From positions 1 to 28,669 of IMG/VR virus record IMGVR_UViG_3300032287_001729: 28,669 nt of DNA. One strand, given 5' to 3'. Below are positions 2,157 through 20,382 of this stretch, piece after piece. Made by a program: the position numbers and the translations under genes. The stretch is from a virus. The notes under the pieces are model-generated. The model searched no databases. It was not told the origin of the DNA and saw only the letters and a list, made by a program, of their open reading frames with translations. Positions within the stretch are counted from its first letter, which is position 1. Each line of letters starts with the position of its first letter.

Positions 2157-4685
2157 CTAGTCGAGTACAGGCTGTAGAGCGTCAAGTTCCATCAGGTCAA
2201 ACAATGTCGGAGCCGTCAGTTCACGCTCCGCCCGTTCGCAAAACGCGACGCCAAATTTCCAGTAATCGGGATTCAGTTCGATGCCCCAACCCTTTCGCCC
2301 CATCTTGACCGCTTGGTATGGCGTTGAGTGGATGCCGCCGAACGGATCGAGGATGACATCTCCCTTGTTGCTGTAGCGTTCAATCAATCGCTCGATGACG
2401 TCTAGCTGTAAGGGGCAAACATGGTTTTCGGTAGTCTTGCGACTCAACTCCGTGTTCAATGTCTTGATGCGGATAATGTCCGTCCAGATGTCTTGATTGT
2501 TCGACACTGGAGCGAACAGCATCATCGACGCCGGTAGCCGTCCAACCTGCTCCACCGCTTCGGTGAACGCTACGTGGTCTTCGTAGTTGTATCGATGCTG
2601 CTTCGCGTATGCTCTCCACCAGTGATAGACCTCTGACGTGGTCATCGTTTGCAGCATTGCCGGGCTTGCAAGCTCGTTGCCGCTTGACCGCCAGATACCG
2701 CTAGCGTGAATCTGCCAACGTGACCTTGAGTATTCCGCCTTGGCTTTAACCACTGGATCCGGCCCGTTCGCAGTTTGGTTCGGACTCATCGACGGATCGA
2801 ACTTGCGAAACAACAAAACGAACTCAGTCGAACCGCAACCCATCTTGGATGAGTCTTTGCTGTTCTCGGTGTGCCCCAATCGGTACGTCTGTGCATTCTC
2901 TCGCACGACGTCTGTATCTATGACAATGCGTCCCATGTAGATAAAGCCATGCTGCTTGAAAGCTGCTACGGTCTTATCGCTGAACTCGTTGACGCTGTAC
3001 ATTGCGTTACCCGTCATCGTTCCGTACTGGATGCGGTCTTTTGTGTGGATGCAAGCAACTCGACCATCTTTAAGCACCCGAAGCAACTCAGGTACTAAGA
3101 AGTCGAACTGCTTGAAGAATCCGTCATCGCCTTGATTGTGTCCGAAGTCATTTAGGTTCGGACTGTATTCGTAGTGATCGGAAAACGGGATCGACGTAAC
3201 AACCTGATCGACGCAACCATCAGGCCATGTCTTTAACTCAGCAACGCAATCATTATTGATCGCTCGATACAGTTCGCCGCTAACCTCAACCCGTGGAACA
3301 CCTAGCCCGCGCTGAAACTTCATCTTTAACATATCTCCTGAAAGGCCGTTTTCTCTTATGATTTCCCGCATGCGTTGCGAGAGTTCGTTATGTCGCTCCC
3401 ATTTCTTCCGCATGATCAACACCGTGTCGAATTGCGTCGAAGCGTAAACAATATGAACCTGAACCGTCTTAGTCTGCATGAACCGCTGGATGCGGTGAAC
3501 CGCTTGGATGAAGTCGTTGAACTTATCCGTCGGCCCGATGAACACCGCCCGATTGCAATGCCGCTGAAAGTTGCAACCGCTTCCAAGCAGTTCCGGCTTA
3601 CTGCTTAGAATCTGCAGCCTGCCGTCCGCGAAGTCGCTAACGATCTGTTCACGCTCTTCTAGCTCTTGCGAGCCGTAGACCGCTTTGCTGTGTGGGATCG
3701 CTTTTTGGATCGCTTCGCGTTCGCTTTCAAGGTAATGCCAGACTAGCCAATGCTCATCAGATTCGGCGTTGACAATCTCGACCATCTTATCAATGCGAGC
3801 ATCTTTGGTTTTCCTTCGCTGCTTTGCGACGTGCTTAATACCGCCGCCGGTTTGCTCAAAGAGAAGCGGATTACCGCGACTATCCACGCATGATCCAGCC
3901 TCCCCCAGTTCGCCCGGCACTTCGTGCCAATGCACTTCCAATTCAGGCATCGAGTACCCCGCATCATCGAATCCTAAGTCGCTCGGTGAATTAACGAACG
4001 CCGCCCACGATGCAACCCAAAGCCAAAAGCGTTGCGTTTCATGCGGATACAACTGAAGGTTTCCAGCCTTCTTGCTATCGCGTTGAAAAAATCGCGTCAT
4101 CGCTTGCCCTCGATCCATTACGCCTAGGAAGTCGGCGTAGTTAATCAACTCGATGAAGTCGTTAGGCGATGGAGTAGCAGTCGCCACGAATCGATACTGA
4201 ACGTTTCGAAAGAGCATTGCGAACTGTTGCGTTGTCTTCGTTCCGTAGGATCGCAAGCAACTAGCTTCATCAAGCATCGCGCCAGCGAACCGCTTTGGAT
4301 CAATCTGACCGTCTCGCACTCGCTCATAGTTCGTGATGATGTAGGGACTATCGCAAGCATCAACCTCGGCATCCGTGCGACAATAAACGACCTTCATTCC
4401 CATTCGTGGCCCGTCATTCTTGGTGAACTCTTGGCGAACGCCTAAAGGGGCGACGAATAGAACTTTCCCGCTAGTCTTTTCGTGTATCCACTTGCCAATC
4501 TGTAATTGCTGTACAGTCTTGCCTAAACCGAAAGCCTCAAACAATGCCGCGCGACCTTTTCGGATAGCCCAATCGACGCATACGACCTGATGCGGCTTGA
4601 ACCACTCAGGGCAAGGTGACTCAGGCTCAAAGCCCTCATCCGCAACTACCGGTGCTTTCGACCGTATAAACTCTTCGTAGTCCAT
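2157..4685 (-). CDS. SNF2-like helicase fused to beta-class DNA methyltransferase
   Basis: This 842-residue fusion has two enzyme halves. Residues about 30-420 are an SNF2/SF2 helicase: GLGKT 53-57 (Walker A), DEAS 139-142 (Walker B), ATATPSPND about 168-176 (motif III), and HRIQRF about 397-402 in the C-terminal helicase lobe. Residues about 460-842 are an amino-methyltransferase: TSIPF (498-501 is SIPF) as motif IV, a motif X-like stretch ending QLDVIERLIER, then DPFGG 780-784 with GIELNPDYW as motifs I-II. The order IV-X-I is that of beta-class N6-adenine/N4-cytosine enzymes. Motif IV normally reads [DNS]-P-P-[YFW]; here the first proline is isoleucine. ATG at 4685 follows GGAGG with nine-base spacing; a TTG at 4694 sits directly against GGAGG and was rejected. 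No nuclease domain is visible. Roles in epigenetic masking, replication or anti-restriction are possible; I cannot choose. Confidence 0.85.
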   Translation of the reverse strand: MDYEEFIRSKAPVVADEGFEPESPCPEWFKPHQVVCVDWAIRKGRAALFEAFGLGKTVQQLQIGKWIHEKTSGKVLFVAPLGVRQEFTKNDGPRMGMKVVYCRTDAEVDACDSPYIITNYERVRDGQIDPKRFAGAMLDEASCLRSYGTKTTQQFAMLFRNVQYRFVATATPSPNDFIELINYADFLGVMDRGQAMTRFFQRDSKKAGNLQLYPHETQRFWLWVASWAAFVNSPSDLGFDDAGYSMPELEVHWHEVPGELGEAGSCVDSRGNPLLFEQTGGGIKHVAKQRRKTKDARIDKMVEIVNAESDEHWLVWHYLESEREAIQKAIPHSKAVYGSQELEEREQIVSDFADGRLQILSSKPELLGSGCNFQRHCNRAVFIGPTDKFNDFIQAVHRIQRFMQTKTVQVHIVYASTQFDTVLIMRKKWERHNELSQRMREIIRENGLSGDMLKMKFQRGLGVPRVEVSGELYRAINNDCVAELKTWPDGCVDQVVTSIPFSDHYEYSPNLNDFGHNQGDDGFFKQFDFLVPELLRVLKDGRVACIHTKDRIQYGTMTGNAMYSVNEFSDKTVAAFKQHGFIYMGRIVIDTDVVRENAQTYRLGHTENSKDSSKMGCGSTEFVLLFRKFDPSMSPNQTANGPDPVVKAKAEYSRSRWQIHASGIWRSSGNELASPAMLQTMTTSEVYHWWRAYAKQHRYNYEDHVAFTEAVEQVGRLPASMMLFAPVSNNQDIWTDIIRIKTLNTELSRKTTENHVCPLQLDVIERLIERYSNKGDVILDPFGGIHSTPYQAVKMGRKGWGIELNPDYWKFGVAFCERAERELTAPTLFDLMELDALQPVLD

Positions 4686-4884
4686 CTCTGTCAACCTCCG
4701 TTACGCCAACTCCCTCAGAGCAACCGTTGCCCCTTTGCTTGTCGGCTGTTAATACTTCAATCTCCCTCAGTAACTCGATTATCATTGCCGAGAGTGTACC
4801 GCTAGTGCCAGTCCAGCAATTCGCTGGCCCGAAGCGTCTAGCGTGTTGTTCAATCTCAATCAATCTTTCACGGCTTATGGGCAT
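4636..4884 (-). CDS. Small hypothetical protein, 82 aa
   Basis: I do not recognise this protein. The N-terminal 45 residues look like a compact helical domain (helices around RERLIEIEQHARR and MIIELLREIEVL, with a Cys-Trp turn between). The C-terminal third is Gly/Thr-rich and overlaps the helicase-methyltransferase gene by 50 bases. ATG at 4884 has GGAGGGG five bases upstream; the alternative GTG at 4890 is too close to it. The gene starts inside the end of the preceding one, so it is part of the early operon. The helix pattern resembles small phage ead/Ea22-like proteins, but this is a resemblance only. Confidence 0.65.
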   Translation of the reverse strand: MPISRERLIEIEQHARRFGPANCWTGTSGTLSAMIIELLREIEVLTADKQRGNGCSEGVGVTEVDRDGLRRVYTVESTGSCG

Positions 4885-13596: not shown

Positions 13597-13969
13597 CGTT
13601 CCGCCTCCAAATTGCTAGTGCATCTTCCACGGTCAACTCAGCTTTGCCAAGTTTGCGGTTTACCCAGTTATGTAAGTTGTAGCCCCAAAGCCAATAGGCA
13701 TCGGGCGATGAGAAGTCGGGAGGGTTGTCGGCTTTGTATTCGGCATAGTCTTTACGACAAGAGCAGCCGTAGTTGGGGATCGTCAATTCCCACTCAGCAT
13801 GCCAAACAGGATCGCATCCGTCGTAAGCGTGCAAGGCTAGCCATGCGTTAGGCAGTGGCGTGATCGTAAAGGATGCGTACGTTATCCGCTTGCCACCTAG
13901 AGCAATCTGCTTGCCTTTGTTGCGTTCGCAAGCCAACTTGCCTAGGTCTGGATTGCTTCGGTCGAGCAT
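13529..13969 (-). CDS. Erv/ALR-like thiol oxidoreductase candidate with CxC, 146 aa
   Basis: The C-terminal half resembles the Erv1/ALR sulfhydryl oxidase fold. An N-terminal AWLALH (42-47) compares with W-x-x-L-H in ALR helix 1. Then come PNYGCSCRKDYAEY (65-78) with the pair C69-x-C71, NPPDFSS (82-88), and LHNWVNRKLGK (99-109), which matches the FAD-contacting HNxVNxxLxK motif. Erv enzymes use CxxC to make disulfides; here only one residue separates the cysteines and the helix-1 to cysteine spacing is about nine residues shorter, so the activity may differ or be lost. ATG at 13969 overlaps the stop of the 35-cysteine protein as TAATG, giving direct translational coupling. A frame start at 14008 is rejected. 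Family by motif only; partner assignment is inference. Confidence 0.6.
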   Translation of the reverse strand: MLDRSNPDLGKLACERNKGKQIALGGKRITYASFTITPLPNAWLALHAYDGCDPVWHAEWELTIPNYGCSCRKDYAEYKADNPPDFSSPDAYWLWGYNLHNWVNRKLGKAELTVEDALAIWRRNDGLETQQTTTQCNRDQLRVDKE

Positions 13970-15333
13970 TACGCAAACTCCAAGGTAACCGTAGGCACCG
14001 GAAAGCAAACATCGCCCGCCGTGAAGTGGCTAGTTGTAATTGAGCAGGTGAGGTCGCGTAAGTCACGCTGGCAACTTCCTTGCAGGTCAATGCAGTTATT
14101 GGCTATAGGCATCCCGTTATCGTCGAAGCGGAAGCAGCATCCGGTAGATCCCTCAACCTCGCAAAACTCTTCCAGTGGCGGATCGCCACCGCCTAGGCAA
14201 TAGTCGTTGAGCGTTCCGCACATTGAAGGGTTACCGAAGATTCTATCCGGGTCGTTTTCCGATACGAAGTAGTCAAAGCCTGGATACTCCTGCAAGCAGT
14301 TGGGAGTAAATGGAGCATCCTGGACAAAGTTGCAAGGCCCGTCGATGAAATAGGCTTGAGTCATCACAAGTACAGCTTCATCCTTTGGGAGAATCGAAAA
14401 GCACCCGGTTGAATCTCCAAAGCCCGGATTAGACCTGTCGTCTTGCATTCCAAAGTAACAAATATCCTCGAATTGCCCATCAAACTGAGGCAACGCTGGT
14501 AAGCACCTATCACTTGCCGCCGTATCGCTCAAACCGCATGGCACAACGACAAAAGTGCAATTCGTCTTCCCAGTGCAACAACTATTCGGCAATGAATCGG
14601 CATTGGTAAGCGATACCGCTTCAGTTGGCAACGTGTCATAAAACTTGATCCGTGTGAATGATCCAATGTCTAGTTCCGCCGTTGCTGGATTGACTACAAG
14701 CCCTTCTGGGCAGTTATCGCTGTCGGTGCCCTCTTCCTCTGTCCAATTGTTCGTATAGGAGCATATTCCGTTGCGATAGACACCCGTGCAAGCGTTGTCT
14801 ATTTTCTTGTAGACGTAAGCGTTTGAAATGTCCTCAAGGATTGAGTAGTAATAGGTCGTCGCAACGAAGAATCTGCAAACCGGCTCCGCGTCTTCATCGC
14901 ACTTTGTTAACGCTTTGCCTACCGTAATTCTCAAGCGAATTAAATCGTACTGTGCGAGATAGTAGATTCTGATCTTTCCATCAAACGAGACTTGCTTCGT
15001 TTGGTACTTGATGCAATCGCAAACGGGCGTTGTTGGCGGAGTCGTTCGATTGATAAAGTCAGTTTGCGTTTTGTAGAAGTCGGCGGTATACGAAAACGAG
15101 TAATTGCGACGCGCCCACAAGTCGCAAACGTTCGTTGCTGTCTGACAATCCAATTCAAACTCTGCAACGTAGCAACACCCTTGGAGAACCAAAGGTTGAC
15201 TAGGATATGTCGGCGGCTCCGTAACTCCGTTGCAAGTCTCGTAGGGTGCTTTTAGCGTCACCGTTTCCCACGGCATTTCTTCCGCTGTTATGCAACAATC
15301 GCAGCAACACTTGCTTAACTTACTCACGCCCAC
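13969..15333 (-). CDS. Cysteine-rich virion/tail-associated protein, 454 aa
   Basis: The protein has 35 cysteines in 454 residues, starting with CCCDCC at residues 9-14 and including five CC or CCC clusters. A segment near the C-terminus (STGCCFRF...NNCIDLQGSC...DLTC) resembles the cysteine-rich repeats I associate with Planctomycetota surface proteins. The rest is aromatic and acidic with beta-like strands and no membrane segment or signal peptide. It follows the tape measure and two structural proteins, where distal tail or receptor-binding proteins usually lie, so a tail-tip role is inferred. Starts are GTG at 15333 or GTG at 15327; AGGGGG favours the latter. Spacing is three bases after the preceding stop. 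A metal-binding rather than disulfide-bonded protein is the main alternative. Confidence 0.65.
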   Translation of the reverse strand: MGVSKLSKCCCDCCITAEEMPWETVTLKAPYETCNGVTEPPTYPSQPLVLQGCCYVAEFELDCQTATNVCDLWARRNYSFSYTADFYKTQTDFINRTTPPTTPVCDCIKYQTKQVSFDGKIRIYYLAQYDLIRLRITVGKALTKCDEDAEPVCRFFVATTYYYSILEDISNAYVYKKIDNACTGVYRNGICSYTNNWTEEEGTDSDNCPEGLVVNPATAELDIGSFTRIKFYDTLPTEAVSLTNADSLPNSCCTGKTNCTFVVVPCGLSDTAASDRCLPALPQFDGQFEDICYFGMQDDRSNPGFGDSTGCFSILPKDEAVLVMTQAYFIDGPCNFVQDAPFTPNCLQEYPGFDYFVSENDPDRIFGNPSMCGTLNDYCLGGGDPPLEEFCEVEGSTGCCFRFDDNGMPIANNCIDLQGSCQRDLRDLTCSITTSHFTAGDVCFPVPTVTLEFA

Positions 15334-15336
15334 CCC

Positions 15337-15666
15337 CTAGCAAATTTCCACCGCTGAGAATTTATTACCGATGCGAAACAACTTCAAATAGGCACCGTTT
15401 GCAATCGCTGAACCCATATTGACTAGGTTCACGTCGTAAAGGTCTTCGAGTACGTTTGCATCCGTAATACGTTTCACCTTCGCCGTGCCTGTGCCTAGCG
15501 TCGTACCTGCCCTCGCTGTGATTGTACTCGTTGCGACTGCAATCAAGCAATCCGCCGTTTGTTGCGTAGGATCGCTATTGCCGCCAGTGCTTGACCCACT
15601 GCCAATCATCCGAAGCAGTTCAAGCGAGTCCGCATCGTTAAAAGCGTAGAGAACTTCATCGGGCAT
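15337..15666 (-). CDS. Hypothetical virion-module protein, 109 aa
   Basis: ATG at 15666 overlaps the preceding stop as TAATG and has AAGGA seven bases upstream; an open extension to 15711 is rejected. The N-terminus (MPDEVLYAFNDADSLELLRMI) is a helix, followed by a Gly/Ser/Thr-rich link (GSGSSTGGNS) and beta-like sequence (TITARAGTTLGTGTAKVKRI), the composition of tail spike or adaptor proteins. No family is recognised. It is expressed between the 297-residue and the cysteine-rich proteins. Confidence 0.62.
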   Translation of the reverse strand: MPDEVLYAFNDADSLELLRMIGSGSSTGGNSDPTQQTADCLIAVATSTITARAGTTLGTGTAKVKRITDANVLEDLYDVNLVNMGSAIANGAYLKLFRIGNKFSAVEIC

Positions 15667-16559
15667 TAGGAAGTCCTTATGAATGACGAGAAGCTGATTT
15701 CCTTTTTGCAACGGAAAGTAAGCGTTGCTGGCGTTGACGCTTTTGCTCCGGTCGTGCCGTTCAAGGCTCCGATAATGCCGAACGTGTTCGTATCGTCCAT
15801 GTACCGCTTGAGTTTATTTCCGTCCGCTGCATCGACGTAATAAGGCCCTACGTCCAGTCTTAGCTCATCGTGCTTATCGGGATCGTACGTGACTTTGTAT
15901 TTAACCCGCCAAGCCGCGAATCCTGCGTACGATCCTAACTCCGCTTCGACAACTTCAAGTAGCAAGGTTCTCGCATCGAAGACTTGCCCGATAGCGTCAA
16001 ACGATGATTGATTTACCGTATCGTTTCGATCCAAAAACACCTTGAGTTTTTGCGAAGCGTCTTCAAACTGCACAAATGAGAATTGGCAAAGTGATCGCGT
16101 CTCAGTCAATGGCGAATCGAACGGAGTACCCGCCGAGTTCACAGGCTTCTTGGCCGTTGGCGTAGTTCGATCCTGTACTAAGACTCGCTCCTTGGTAACG
16201 AAAGAGTCAATCTTAAATACTGGAGTCCATGTCGTAGGATCGGGACTATCGGGATTCTCTTGGCTCTGCTTTTGCTCTTCGGTGCCCGTTTGAAACTTTG
16301 CGTCTACTGTCCAGTAGAGAGGGTGCTTTTCGTCACGGTCGGCGGTCAAGTCATCGCACACTAAACCTAGAGGCCCGTATAGCAAGCCAACGCGGGGCAA
16401 GCCTGGAGTCTCAGTAAGTACCGAGAGACGCGAAGTAAACTTATCATCGGTCTTGACGCGAAAGCTCCAAGCCTCACCGAAGACAAGCGAGAAGCCTTGA
16501 CCCTTGCGAACAAATCCGCTGCCCTTGCGTAACTCCGATCCGATTAACTCATTAGCCAT
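15666..16559 (-). CDS. Hypothetical tail-associated structural protein, 297 aa
   Basis: This is an unrecognised beta-rich protein with a strong ribosome site (AGGAGG) and ATG at 16559. The middle (FKIDSFVTKERVLVQDRTTPT) and a long C-terminal part (VVEAELGSYAGFAAWRVKYKVTYD) look like strands. It is the first gene after the tape measure, which in siphoviruses is usually the distal tail protein. The sequence gives no proof of that fold, so this is a positional inference. Confidence 0.6.
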   Translation of the reverse strand: MANELIGSELRKGSGFVRKGQGFSLVFGEAWSFRVKTDDKFTSRLSVLTETPGLPRVGLLYGPLGLVCDDLTADRDEKHPLYWTVDAKFQTGTEEQKQSQENPDSPDPTTWTPVFKIDSFVTKERVLVQDRTTPTAKKPVNSAGTPFDSPLTETRSLCQFSFVQFEDASQKLKVFLDRNDTVNQSSFDAIGQVFDARTLLLEVVEAELGSYAGFAAWRVKYKVTYDPDKHDELRLDVGPYYVDAADGNKLKRYMDDTNTFGIIGALNGTTGAKASTPATLTFRCKKEISFSSFIRTS

Positions 16560-16564
16560 TCGTG

Positions 16565-18544
16565 TTACCTCCTAAAAGCGATTCGCGGTGCATTCTCGGC
16601 CAGTAGCGTTTGCTTCTTGGTTTCCGCTAGCAAGTCCTCGGCAAGTTTCTTCTGCTCTGCTTGCTGCTTGCTCTTTGCGTTCTCTTGCTGCATGAATGTA
16701 AACGCTTCTTTAGTGCCTGCCTTGAGCGTAGGTGCGATGTTCTTGGCGATCTCCTGGCCTACTCCAGCAAACTTATCTGATGCCCCTTGTCGGCTTTGTT
16801 GCTGTGCTTCAAACGCTGACCGTGCAAAGATGGATTGCTCTGCCATCGCTGCCCGCTTGCGTATGCCCTCTTTTTGCTTCTCGTTGTCGCCAGCCTCTGC
16901 GAGTTGCCGCCTGAATGCTTCGTCAAGCGTTGCGTACTCTTTGCGTAACGAGTCGCTAGATAGAAAGTTCTTCTCCTTCATCGCTGCGACTTGCTTCTCT
17001 ACTTCGAGTTGTTTGTTGGCCGCTTCGACGGATGCGTGTATCGCGTTCAGTTCGTTTAGCCGCTTGGTTTCTTCCATGTCCATTAACGCGGCTTGGGCTT
17101 GCATCTTTTCGCCCTCTGTCATCTGAAAAGTGTCGTCGAACAACTTCGCCTTTTCGTAGTTCTCGGCACCCATGCCCGCCTTGCGTCGCTCTTCGCTGAT
17201 CTGGTTGATGCGACTTGCAAACGCCGACCGCTCGCTCTCCATCTTTCGATTGTCAAACTCAATCGCCTCTTTAGATGCCTTAGCGGCTCGTTCCCGCTCG
17301 TCCGCGATCTGCTTAGACAGTCTAGCCCTTTCGCGTTCTTGATCCGCCATTCGCTTCTCTATGCGTTCAGACTCGGCGTAGATTTCTTTTTCTTGTTGCG
17401 TCAACTCCTTCTTTTGCTTCGACGCTTCGACTAGCGAAAGGATGCCATCTAGGGCCTTGTCGACACCCGGCTTAATTTCACGCTCACCAATGGCCGTCAC
17501 GAACTGCTTAAACTCGCTTTGAAGTTTCGACATCTTGACCGATGTGGTCGTTGCCATCTTTTCATTCATGCCGTAAAACAACCCGCCCTTTTTCGTAGCA
17601 TTCTCAAAGGCTGTCGCTACCATCTCGGCACTAATCGCCCCGTCTTCCATCCGCTTGCGTAGCTCTGCCATGCTAACGCCGGTATCCTTGCTGATCTGTT
17701 GCAAGGGATTGAAGCCAGCGTTAACAAGTTGCAAGACTTCCTGCCCTGTCAGTTTCCCTGCGGCTTGCACCTGGCCGAATGCTAACGCCATTGCTTGAAA
17801 GCGTTGAGCATTGCCCATTGATATCTCTGACATGGACTCCATAACCGGCACGACATTGCGTACACTCACGCCGAACTGCATCAACGTCTTGGAAGCGTCT
17901 TGGAAGTCAGTTGCACTCAATGCCGATGCTTGATCCAAGCGGATAAACTCCGCCATCAGTTTTTTGGTAGCCTCTTCCGATTGCGTGAAGACGTTTATCT
18001 GTGCCCTGACTTGCTCGACTTGCATAGCAAGCCCCATAGCATGCTTGCCAAAGTCAGTGAGGCCCTTAACCGCTCCCAGTGCAGCACCTGCGACGGCTAG
18101 ACCGCTTATCGCTGATGTGGCCCTATTGATTGCAACTGGTGCCGATGCTCCAAAACTATTCGTTGCGTCCGATTGTCTTCGGATACCTTCGAGGTACGTT
18201 TGAAAGTTTGCTTGCCTTGCGTCTTCGGCTTGCTTTGCTTTTAGCTTGGTATCCGCCAGCCGCTGCTCTGCCTTTGCTGCGTTCTCGGCATAGGTCGCGG
18301 TCAACCCGTGCTTTTTTGCTAGATTGTCAATGGTTCGATTGTAAGCATCCGCCGTGAGCCCACCTGCCGCAAATGCTCTGTCAAGCAACGCAACATCCTT
18401 CGCCATCTTCTGCATCGGGGTTTCCGATGCTCGCACCGCCCTAGCAATAGAGTTCAATTCGTGGCGTGCAAACTCACCATTCTTCTTGAGTTCCTCAATC
18501 TTTAACCCAATCGAGATGTTAGCGACGTTTACAGTAGTTGCCAT
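16565..18544 (-). CDS. Tail tape measure protein, 659 aa
   Basis: Residues about 170-355 match the tape-measure N-terminal domain (VNAGFNPLQQISKDTGVSM near 274-292 and DGAISAEMVATAFENATKKG at 301-320 are typical). A glycine/alanine hydrophobic stretch at about 147-163 precedes it. A long charged coiled coil runs from about 375 to 560 (KEIYAESERIEKRMADQERE), and the end is Gln/Lys-rich. Known family: this protein sets tail length at roughly 1.5 angstroms per residue, so a tail near 100 nm is a rough inference. ATG at 18544 directly follows the chaperone stop (TAAATG) with AGGAG upstream. No lysozyme or peptidase domain is seen. Confidence 0.88.
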   Translation of the reverse strand: MATTVNVANISIGLKIEELKKNGEFARHELNSIARAVRASETPMQKMAKDVALLDRAFAAGGLTADAYNRTIDNLAKKHGLTATYAENAAKAEQRLADTKLKAKQAEDARQANFQTYLEGIRRQSDATNSFGASAPVAINRATSAISGLAVAGAALGAVKGLTDFGKHAMGLAMQVEQVRAQINVFTQSEEATKKLMAEFIRLDQASALSATDFQDASKTLMQFGVSVRNVVPVMESMSEISMGNAQRFQAMALAFGQVQAAGKLTGQEVLQLVNAGFNPLQQISKDTGVSMAELRKRMEDGAISAEMVATAFENATKKGGLFYGMNEKMATTTSVKMSKLQSEFKQFVTAIGEREIKPGVDKALDGILSLVEASKQKKELTQQEKEIYAESERIEKRMADQERERARLSKQIADERERAAKASKEAIEFDNRKMESERSAFASRINQISEERRKAGMGAENYEKAKLFDDTFQMTEGEKMQAQAALMDMEETKRLNELNAIHASVEAANKQLEVEKQVAAMKEKNFLSSDSLRKEYATLDEAFRRQLAEAGDNEKQKEGIRKRAAMAEQSIFARSAFEAQQQSRQGASDKFAGVGQEIAKNIAPTLKAGTKEAFTFMQQENAKSKQQAEQKKLAEDLLAETKKQTLLAENAPRIAFRR

Positions 18545-18898
18545 TTACTTCGCTCCTAATCCAAACATCGCTTTGACCTGCCCTGCTATTTGCGTCGATG
18601 CTTTAGCGGCCTGCTTTAGCATCGTTTTTGCGCTCCGTTTTGGCCGCCTGTAGCGACTCGGCATGAAGTCGGCTACCTCTGGCATCTCCTGACCAGCCCT
18701 AGCGTATAGAGGCAAGTTGATAGCGTGTACGATAGATGCGGTTTGCTCCCACTCTTCGCCGATTGGCTCGATAGAGTCAAATGCAATCCATTGAGTTAAC
18801 GCTCCCGATGGTAGGCTCTTTATCCATGCCATCGGGTCAACAATCCCCCATCTCAACGCAAGCCGGAATGCGATTGCTAGCCGCCGGTTGCGTCTGAT
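18545..18898 (-). CDS. Tail assembly chaperone T-part, made by -1 frameshift from G
   Basis: This frame is the T domain of a lambda G/GT-like tail chaperone. Its core (ALTQWIAFDSIEPIGEEW, then ADFMP) matches the family pattern of W-x-A-F-x-x-I-E-P-[FI]-G and F-M-P. The frame has no good start: a TTG at 18856 is open but lacks a ribosome site, and the upstream residues (RRLAIAFRLALRW) between the slip site and that TTG are domain-like. Reading from the slip site, 117 residues are added to the first 111 of G, giving a fusion of 228. The fusion would bind tail tube and tape measure during assembly. This is a recognisable family feature plus visible frame geometry. Confidence 0.82.
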   Translation of the reverse strand: MRRNRRLAIAFRLALRWGIVDPMAWIKSLPSGALTQWIAFDSIEPIGEEWEQTASIVHAINLPLYARAGQEMPEVADFMPSRYRRPKRSAKTMLKQAAKASTQIAGQVKAMFGLGAK

Positions 18899-18904
18899 TT
18901 TTTT
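18839..18904 (-). promoter_or_regulatory. -1 programmed ribosomal frameshift signal: A-AAA-AAA slip site and predicted pseudoknot
   Basis: On the coding strand the heptamer A-AAA-AAA (18904-18898) is read in the G frame as gcA AAA AAA. After a five-base spacer comes stem 1: CGCAACCGG (18892-18884) pairs with CCGGCTTGCG (18866-18857) with one bulged C. The loop segment AGCAATC (18878-18872) can pair with GATTGTT (18845-18839; one G-U), forming stem 2 of an H-type pseudoknot. G stops at 18877, so -1 shifting bypasses that stop. Pairing was done by eye. Confidence 0.82.
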
Positions 18905-19230
18905 GCTAGTGCTTCGATCTCGCCAGCGTCGTATTCGGAGAGCTTTAACGCTTCGGCGTAAAGACTCCCGATGATTGACTTAGGCAAGGGCTTGAGCGCG
19001 TCCGAATCCTTTACGATCCGCTCGCCATCAGCCCCAACCAAGCAATACGACACGAGCAATCTTCGATGCTTCGCAAAATCGAACTTCTCGCCTGACTGCA
19101 TAGAGACTTCCATGTCCGCTGCATCAGACTCGCACAACTCCCGAAGCGTAAACACTTCCGATCCGATGCGAACCTCGATAGTGCGAAGTGGACGCGATGC
19201 CGCTGCAAGGAATCTATCTAGTTCACTCAT
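18877..19230 (-). CDS. Tail assembly chaperone G-part, 117 aa
   Basis: ATG at 19230 lies inside the previous gene's stop region (overlap of eight bases, ATGAGTGA) with GAGGA eleven bases upstream; an open extension to 19275 is rejected. The protein has an N-terminal helix (SELDRFLAAASRPLRTIEV) and a beta segment (IGSEVFTLRELCES), then a helical C-terminus. This matches the general size and position of phage G-type chaperones upstream of the tape measure. Most ribosomes terminate at 18877, producing G; a minority slip to make the GT fusion. Family by position plus the frameshift partner. Confidence 0.78.
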   Translation of the reverse strand: MSELDRFLAAASRPLRTIEVRIGSEVFTLRELCESDAADMEVSMQSGEKFDFAKHRRLLVSYCLVGADGERIVKDSDALKPLPKSIIGSLYAEALKLSEYDAGEIEALAKKSDATGG

Positions 19231-19528
19231 CGTCTTCGTCATCCTCTTCGATAATCCGCTTTGCTTCCTCGACAAACTGCCGTGAAAATTGCTCAGGCGG
19301 TAACACCTTGACTGGATGCCCTAACGCTTGCTCCGCTTGTAGCTCAAGCGATGCAATCGCGTCGGCATTCAGTTCGTCGTGTGGGAAGTGAAACAACGCC
19401 TGTAACTGCGATTCCTCGCCGTGTGGCAAGTAGCCAACTAGCACCGAATCGAATAACACCTGAAACTGTGCCAACGAAACATCAATTCCGTCGGCTCTCG
19501 TACCAAACTGCTGCTTTATAGCAAACAT
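19223..19528 (-). CDS. Hypothetical tail-module acidic protein, 101 aa
   Basis: ATG at 19528 has AAGGGG upstream. The protein is amphipathic in the middle (VSLAQFQVLFDSVLVGYLPHG) and ends with an acidic helix and tail (RIIEEDDEDDE). It sits between the tail tube gene and the G-type chaperone, where small tail proteins of unknown function are common. A second frameshift into G was considered and rejected because no slip site exists and G has its own start. Not recognised. Confidence 0.62.
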   Translation of the reverse strand: MFAIKQQFGTRADGIDVSLAQFQVLFDSVLVGYLPHGEESQLQALFHFPHDELNADAIASLELQAEQALGHPVKVLPPEQFSRQFVEEAKRIIEEDDEDDE

Positions 19529-19540
19529 AAAAGCCCCTTA

Positions 19541-19963
19541 CTAAGCTACTGTGTAAGTCAAAGTTGTTGCACCGTCAAACTGTAGGGTGTAACTGCCCTT
19601 CATGATAACGCCCTTTTCGCAACTTGGGAATTTTACGTTTTTGACGAACGCGGTTCCCTGCACCGAGCCAGCACTGGGAAAGGTCAAGGTAACTGCGATT
19701 CCCGCGTATGGCTCCGAGGTTGGAATCATTGCAGTAGTGATCGGCACCGCAGCACCGAGCCAGTTAAACTCGACTTCTATTTCTGGATTCTTTCGCAGGT
19801 CGCTTGGTCGCAATTGCTCATAGAGCGTGGTGCCCAAGTGCGTAATATCGAGAGCATCAACGGAGATATTAAAATCCCCAATTCGAGTGATCTGAGTTGT
19901 CACCAAACCAGTACCGGAAATGGTTGCCCCCAACCCGGTATCTGCGACGGTCAAAGCTGCCAT
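19541..19963 (-). CDS. Major tail tube protein, 140 aa
   Basis: This beta-rich protein of the size and position of a siphovirus tail tube protein lies between the tail completion protein and the chaperones. Features are N-terminal DFNISVDALDITHLGTTLYEQ (residues about 29-49), a middle FNWLGAAVPI (65-74) and a C-terminal strand GSYTLQFDGATTLTYTVA, consistent with a two-sheet tube fold. AAGGAG precedes ATG at 19963. Alternative: another tail structural protein; the tube is the best fit by context and composition. Confidence 0.72.
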   Translation of the reverse strand: MAALTVADTGLGATISGTGLVTTQITRIGDFNISVDALDITHLGTTLYEQLRPSDLRKNPEIEVEFNWLGAAVPITTAMIPTSEPYAGIAVTLTFPSAGSVQGTAFVKNVKFPSCEKGVIMKGSYTLQFDGATTLTYTVA

Positions 19964-19965
19964 AG

Positions 19966-20382
19966 TTAAGGCTCCTTGTAGTGCACCAAGAGATCGAAAC
20001 TAACCAAATACCGATGCTCTTGGTTGCCATCGGTTGGAGGATCCTGCATGTATTCATCGCCGCTGTCGAAGTCGATGCCGCAAAAGGTATAGCCATCGAC
20101 AACACCGCGAAAAGAATCAATTCCAGTCTCACGAATCGCTCTGCTGATCGCACTTGCTGCCGTGCGAGTCAGTGCGAAACACTCGAGCGTTATCCGTGCA
20201 TGTGCGGACTTGCCTAGCCCGCTTACCATGTGATCGCGTTGCGTCGAGATGACGTAGTAAATCACCGCTGGCATGGTCGCTTTTTGTACCAAGACGTCTG
20301 GATACATACGCTGCCCTATAAGCGTTGATACGCTTGCATAGGATAGCAGTTTAGTACGCAACGCTTCGCCAATGGCACTCAT
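19966..20382 (-). CDS. Tail completion / DUF3168-like protein, 138 aa
   Basis: The pattern is of DUF3168: an N-terminal helix (IGEALRTKLLSYASVSTLIG), RMYPD at 25-29, MPAVIYYVIS and RITLECFALTR strands, and a C-terminal strand SFDLLVHYKEP. Family members cap the tail end next to the head. TAATG overlap of one base with the previous stop, and GGGGAG upstream, indicate coupling. It lies between the HK97 gp10-like gene and the tail tube, matching the usual order. Confidence 0.78.
   Translation of the reverse strand: MSAIGEALRTKLLSYASVSTLIGQRMYPDVLVQKATMPAVIYYVISTQRDHMVSGLGKSAHARITLECFALTRTAASAISRAIRETGIDSFRGVVDGYTFCGIDFDSGDEYMQDPPTDGNQEHRYLVSFDLLVHYKEP

Follow-up and report, generated by a model that had tools for sequence, protein, structure and literature searches.

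In phage lambda, gpG and gpGT are produced through low-level -1 frameshifting, with gpG exceeding gpGT about 30-fold; its T domain is what binds the tail tube protein, and conservation of the G/GT pair extends widely among long-tailed phages (PMC5009743). Downstream structured stimulators, either hairpins or pseudoknots, are standard at shift sites and are scored by prediction programs (PMC10274946). The window analysed here, i.e. the whole stretch of DNA under study, comprises 28,669 bases of a virus record from an uncultured-virus collection, and its late genes are situated on the minus strand. It resembles lambda in having a G chaperone with a T domain in the -1 frame, a slip site shortly 5′ of the G stop and a tape measure gene just after. 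The slip site of lambda is GGGAAAG, in contrast to the A-AAA-AAA of the window, and the window differs further in its strong downstream hairpin and possible clade-specific pseudoknot. Its G and T sequences are too distant for either to find a match in 50,697 phage records. From its sequence, the window G/GT would be a real new member of the lambda kind of frameshift that is already known.

Escherichia coli dnaX encodes a protein unrelated to G/GT and shares with the window a poly-A lysine heptamer followed by a stem-loop, as well as, in some relatives of the window, SD-like sequences upstream of the slip site. It differs in that its heptamer is A-AAA-AAG and in that the SD-like match upstream of the slip site in the window is weak (-3.5 kcal/mol). 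The coordinates of the features considered here are collected in Table 1.

Table 1. Features of the G/GT region of the window. Positions are those of the window.
Feature	Position	Strand	Remarks
Tail terminator	19966..20382	-	Upstream in the tail module; phrog_347, PF11367
140-aa ORF	19541-19963	-	Position of the tail tube protein
101-aa ORF	19223-19528	-	Acidic tail; stop overlaps the G start (ATGAGTGA)
Gene G, tail assembly chaperone, 117 aa	18877..19230	-	ATG 19230, stop TAG 18879-18877
Slippery heptamer A-AAA-AAA, G frame	18898..18904	-	From the sequence and its relatives
T part, -1 frame	18545..18901	-	117 codons after the second Lys
Stem 1	18856..18893	-	Arms 18893-18884 and 18866-18856; 10 bp, bulged C at 18862
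Candidate stem 2	18835..18882	-	Loop 18882-18872 (GGCUAGCAAUC) with 18845-18835 (GAUUGUUGACC)
Possible internal T start	18830..18849	-	ATG 18832-18830, GGGGG 18849-18845
Tape measure protein	16565..18544	-	PF20155, E=1.4e-26; several tape-measure phrogs

The genes are arranged in the order tail terminator, two ORFs without a family match, G/GT and tape measure. The 140-aa ORF, for which no Pfam or PHROG family match was found, occupies the major-tail-protein position on the 5′ side and by that position would encode the tail tube protein; the 101-aa ORF likewise gave no match in Pfam or PHROG. Directly 3′ of G/GT, the ATG of the tape measure gene is the very next base after the T stop (TAAATG). 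Beyond the tape measure gene are two large ORFs, one of them cysteine-rich (13969-15333 and 15666-16559, both minus strand), which matched neither Pfam nor PHROG and are, by position, probably tail proteins. Elsewhere on the minus strand, positions 2157-4694 encode an 845-aa protein in which an SNF2-like helicase is joined to an N6/N4 DNA methylase domain. No Rfam family or tRNA was found in the window.

G is a member of the tail assembly chaperone family. It matches the tail assembly chaperone family phrog_344 with an E value of 7e-9, a match common to all 29 aligned relatives. When its AlphaFold model (pLDDT 87) was compared with the PDB using Foldseek, the top match was 2OB9, the HK97 tail assembly chaperone (probability 1.00, TM 0.57/0.63, E=1.8e-3), although the identity between the two is 19%. 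A profile search by sequence among solved structures gave no relative of G. The T part matches PF06223 (Phage_tail_T) with an E value of 2.5e-6, exceeding the gathering score, and also matches the tail protein family phrog_337; the PF06223 match was obtained for 10 of 13 diverse relatives. By frame arithmetic and the open frame, the T domain lies in the -1 frame and overlaps the 3′ end of G, and the predicted GT fusion is 228 aa in length.

Scans of viral contigs for relatives yielded 68 distinct slip regions. These belong to several clades, and individual members are referred to by L numbers; no relative was found in the genome contigs scanned. Identity of the T protein across clades is about 33-60%, and it falls to 33-34% relative to the window in L067 and L068, the most distant relatives. 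The T frame is open from the slip site in every relative.

At the slip site of the window, the G frame reads GCA AAA AAA TCA, with 18 nt between the heptamer and the G stop. The heptamer is A7 in 66 of the 68 distinct relatives and A-AAA-AAC in the remaining two (L067 and L068), so that an X-XXY-YYZ slip site ahead of the G stop is kept throughout. The G stop itself varies among relatives (TAG, TGA or TAA), with the arrangement unaffected. Just three A7 runs occur on the minus strand in 28.7 kb, and AAA accounts for 36% of the Lys codons outside the slip site. SD-like sequences are present in many relatives, 10-20 nt before the slip site, and hardly in the window itself; GAGG or AAGGAG precedes the heptamer by roughly 7-15 nt in L062, L098, L104, L126, L129, L134 and L136.

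Stop codons in the relatives bear on where the shift would take place. In L122 and L124 (contigs that also bear the numbers L026 and L017), which differ from each other at 45 of 750 positions, a TAA stands right behind the heptamer in the G frame and the T frame is intact; in these two contigs, G terminates at the slip site itself. In L062, L063, L104, L105, L117, L118, L137, L153 and L183, the -1 frame is blocked by a stop 4 codons upstream. Natural stops on both sides therefore leave the heptamer, plus about 9 nt ahead of it at most, as the site of the shift.

After a spacer of 5 nt (TCAGA), within the 5-9 nt expected for a stimulator of the H-type pseudoknot class, the heptamer is followed by stem 1. 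Its arms, CGCAACCGG and CCGGCTTGCG, form 9 bp interrupted by a single bulged C; including the A-U pair beneath brings the stem to 10 bp. The predicted free energy of the hairpin is about -17.5 kcal/mol, outer pairs included. Every clade but L067/L068 has a hairpin at this place, its predicted energy ranging from about -14 to -26 kcal/mol; in those two (L067:1680-1967 and L068:2001-2309), no hairpin was found right after the heptamer. The arms are clade-specific, e.g. GAGCCG/CGGCTC in L137, CCAGCC/GGCTGG in L098 and AAGCCAGCGG/CCGTCTGGCTT in L134. The window hairpin is modestly more stable than T-frame sequences recoded at random with synonymous codons (p=0.043); the corresponding values are p<=0.005 in most other clades, and 0.001 or below in L061, L098, L134, L136, L137 and L153. 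T codons 13-15 show zero synonymous changes, in keeping with stem 1.

When stem 1, as drawn for the window, was applied over all clades, 68.9% of cells could pair vs 61.5% in shuffled data, and 0 of 500 shuffles gave a value as high. The shifting of bulges from clade to clade weakens the column-wise covariation test of this stem. No structure emerged when the 53-sequence alignment was folded as a consensus, as clades with different bulges and registers were aligned there without gaps; folding was done clade by clade instead. The hairpin itself is well supported, and a stimulatory function for it is likely. A-AAA-AAG shifts better than A-AAA-AAA in E. coli (PMC5009743), a point against the frameshift reading that would also fit the need for a stimulator.

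A preliminary description, made from the letters of the window, had proposed a -1 frameshift joining G and GT at a perfect A-AAA-AAA in the G frame, 18 bases before the G stop, with the T frame open from there and a 9 bp stem bearing one bulge after a five-base spacer. The present data agree with each of these points on the minus strand: the heptamer lies at 18904-18898, the T frame is uninterrupted from the slip site to the TAA at 18545, the stem and spacer are as described, and the protein identities, gene order, slip site, bracketing stops and hairpin are all consistent with the proposed joining. A comparison of homologues had also been suggested, for conservation of the slip site and for compensatory changes in the two stems. 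The slip site proved conserved in the proportions given above; stem 1 recurs except in the most distant relatives, with different pairs and shifted bulges.

Taken together, the data make a lambda-type programmed -1 ribosomal frameshift on A-AAA-AAA very probable at this locus. Most ribosomes would translate G through to its stop. A minority, we infer, would stall at the RNA hairpin 5 nt downstream of the heptamer and re-pair both lysine tRNAs one base back on A-AAA-AAA, after which reading in the -1 frame would produce GT. By analogy with lambda, G would coat the tape measure protein and the T domain would recruit the tail tube protein.

A further element may be present in the window's own clade. 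The sequence CAATC in the hairpin loop pairs with GATTG, which begins 11 nt after the 9-bp stem, as noted in the preliminary description, and the complementarity is longer than was stated there: 8 contiguous bp can form between TAGCAATC and GATTGTTG (18879-18872 with 18845-18838). The extended pairing comprises 10 of 11 pairs with one C.A mismatch, and in L127 and L130 a C to T change turns this sole mismatch into a U-A pair, giving 11 bp. A full 11-bp stem 2 would leave one nucleotide to cross it and is sterically doubtful; 6-8 bp is the plausible form. By a crude energy sum, pseudoknot variants fall at -12 to -19 kcal/mol vs -17.5 kcal/mol for the plain hairpin, with no clear preference.

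Stem 2 is confined to the window clade, and no partner was found for it in L057, L061, L062, L134 and L136. Across 19 window-clade sequences its pairs are intact in 100% of cells, two of the pairs being preserved by A-U/G-U exchange. No double (compensatory) changes were present among these sequences, so covariation neither supports nor refutes the stem. Synonymous sites were more informative. Within T codons 18-22, where the downstream arm lies, 22 window-clade sequences show 0 synonymous changes vs 15.3 expected from codons of equal degeneracy; a simpler permutation gave p=0.0004, the synonymous-site p-values being nominal in that the background comprises only ten three-fold codons and the sequences are related. 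The same codons show 18 synonymous changes vs 19.9 expected in clade 2, which is without the complementarity. Within the window clade, synonymous changes are absent from loop codons 8-9 and number 12 in codons 10-12, between the stem-2 arms. This marked invariance would lend support to stem 2. A separate candidate in the L098 clade (11 pairs, many of them G-U, p=0.06) was set aside, because on inspection a change in L099 breaks the pairing.

Of the pseudoknot put forward in the preliminary description, the loop pairing and its 11-nt distance stand, with the synonymous invariance added in the window clade; the compensatory changes looked for in stem 2 did not appear, and the other clades lack the stem. 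The chances that an H-type pseudoknot forms in the window clade, between the loop and 18845-18838, are judged to be about even. A particular role for such a structure is advanced tentatively, at slightly less than even probability. The G stop is in the loop, and the loop would be one arm of stem 2, such that a terminating ribosome would open the pseudoknot and a shifting ribosome would meet it folded; the stimulator would have arisen in one clade atop an older plain hairpin. It is also possible, at a probability that falls somewhat short of even, that the frameshift is real and its stimulator is a plain hairpin, with the stem-2 complementarity due to chance or to another constraint. The hairpin is what recurs across clades, stem 2 has neither covariation nor a partner in the five relatives listed above, and the energy estimate fails to separate the two structures. 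Such an account is opposed by the invariance of codons 18-22 and 8-9 on either side of codons 10-12 with their 12 changes, and by the C to T change in L127 and L130 that converts the single mismatch into a pair.

The conserved stretch at 18850-18830 could alternatively represent a start region, with T translated on its own from an internal start at ATG 18832. The preliminary description had held that the T frame has no ribosome site, a statement that is too strong, since GGGGG is situated 12 nt 5′ of this ATG with a predicted anti-SD pairing of -8.4 kcal/mol, similar in strength to that of real genes of the phage. The 12-nt spacing is long, however, and the ATG is absent at the same place in L061, L062, L098, L104, L105, L134 and L162. 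In addition, the T protein is conserved upstream of the ATG (RRxRRLxxAFRLAL), the L057 clade shares both GGGGG and ATG yet varies at codons 19-20 between them, and the invariant loop codons 8-9 would be left unexplained; internal initiation is accordingly considered improbable. A little less probable still is slippage of RNA polymerase on the A7 run, in which one extra A would yield the -1 frame. Some bacterial and IS genes do make use of transcriptional slippage (PMC5009743), and a homopolymeric run is indeed present in the window. The A-AAA-AAC of the two most distant relatives fits tandem tRNA slippage instead, and the position of the hairpin suits a ribosomal stimulator. Seven A's are, moreover, short for efficient polymerase slippage. 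That a recent frameshift mutation or a sequencing error split one gene has a negligible probability, as the same arrangement is seen in 68 distinct sequences from many contigs whose T proteins are about 33-60% identical.

The lambda-type ribosomal frameshift, as read from these sequences, would extend the G/GT arrangement to an uncultured phage group that is absent from the annotated phage collection searched. For gene callers, it makes it necessary to join T to G at 18904-18898. The relatives, moreover, may provide a natural series with which to test how the G:GT ratio is set in phages, comprising clades with a plain hairpin, a clade with loop-to-downstream pairing, and two contigs with a stop against the heptamer.
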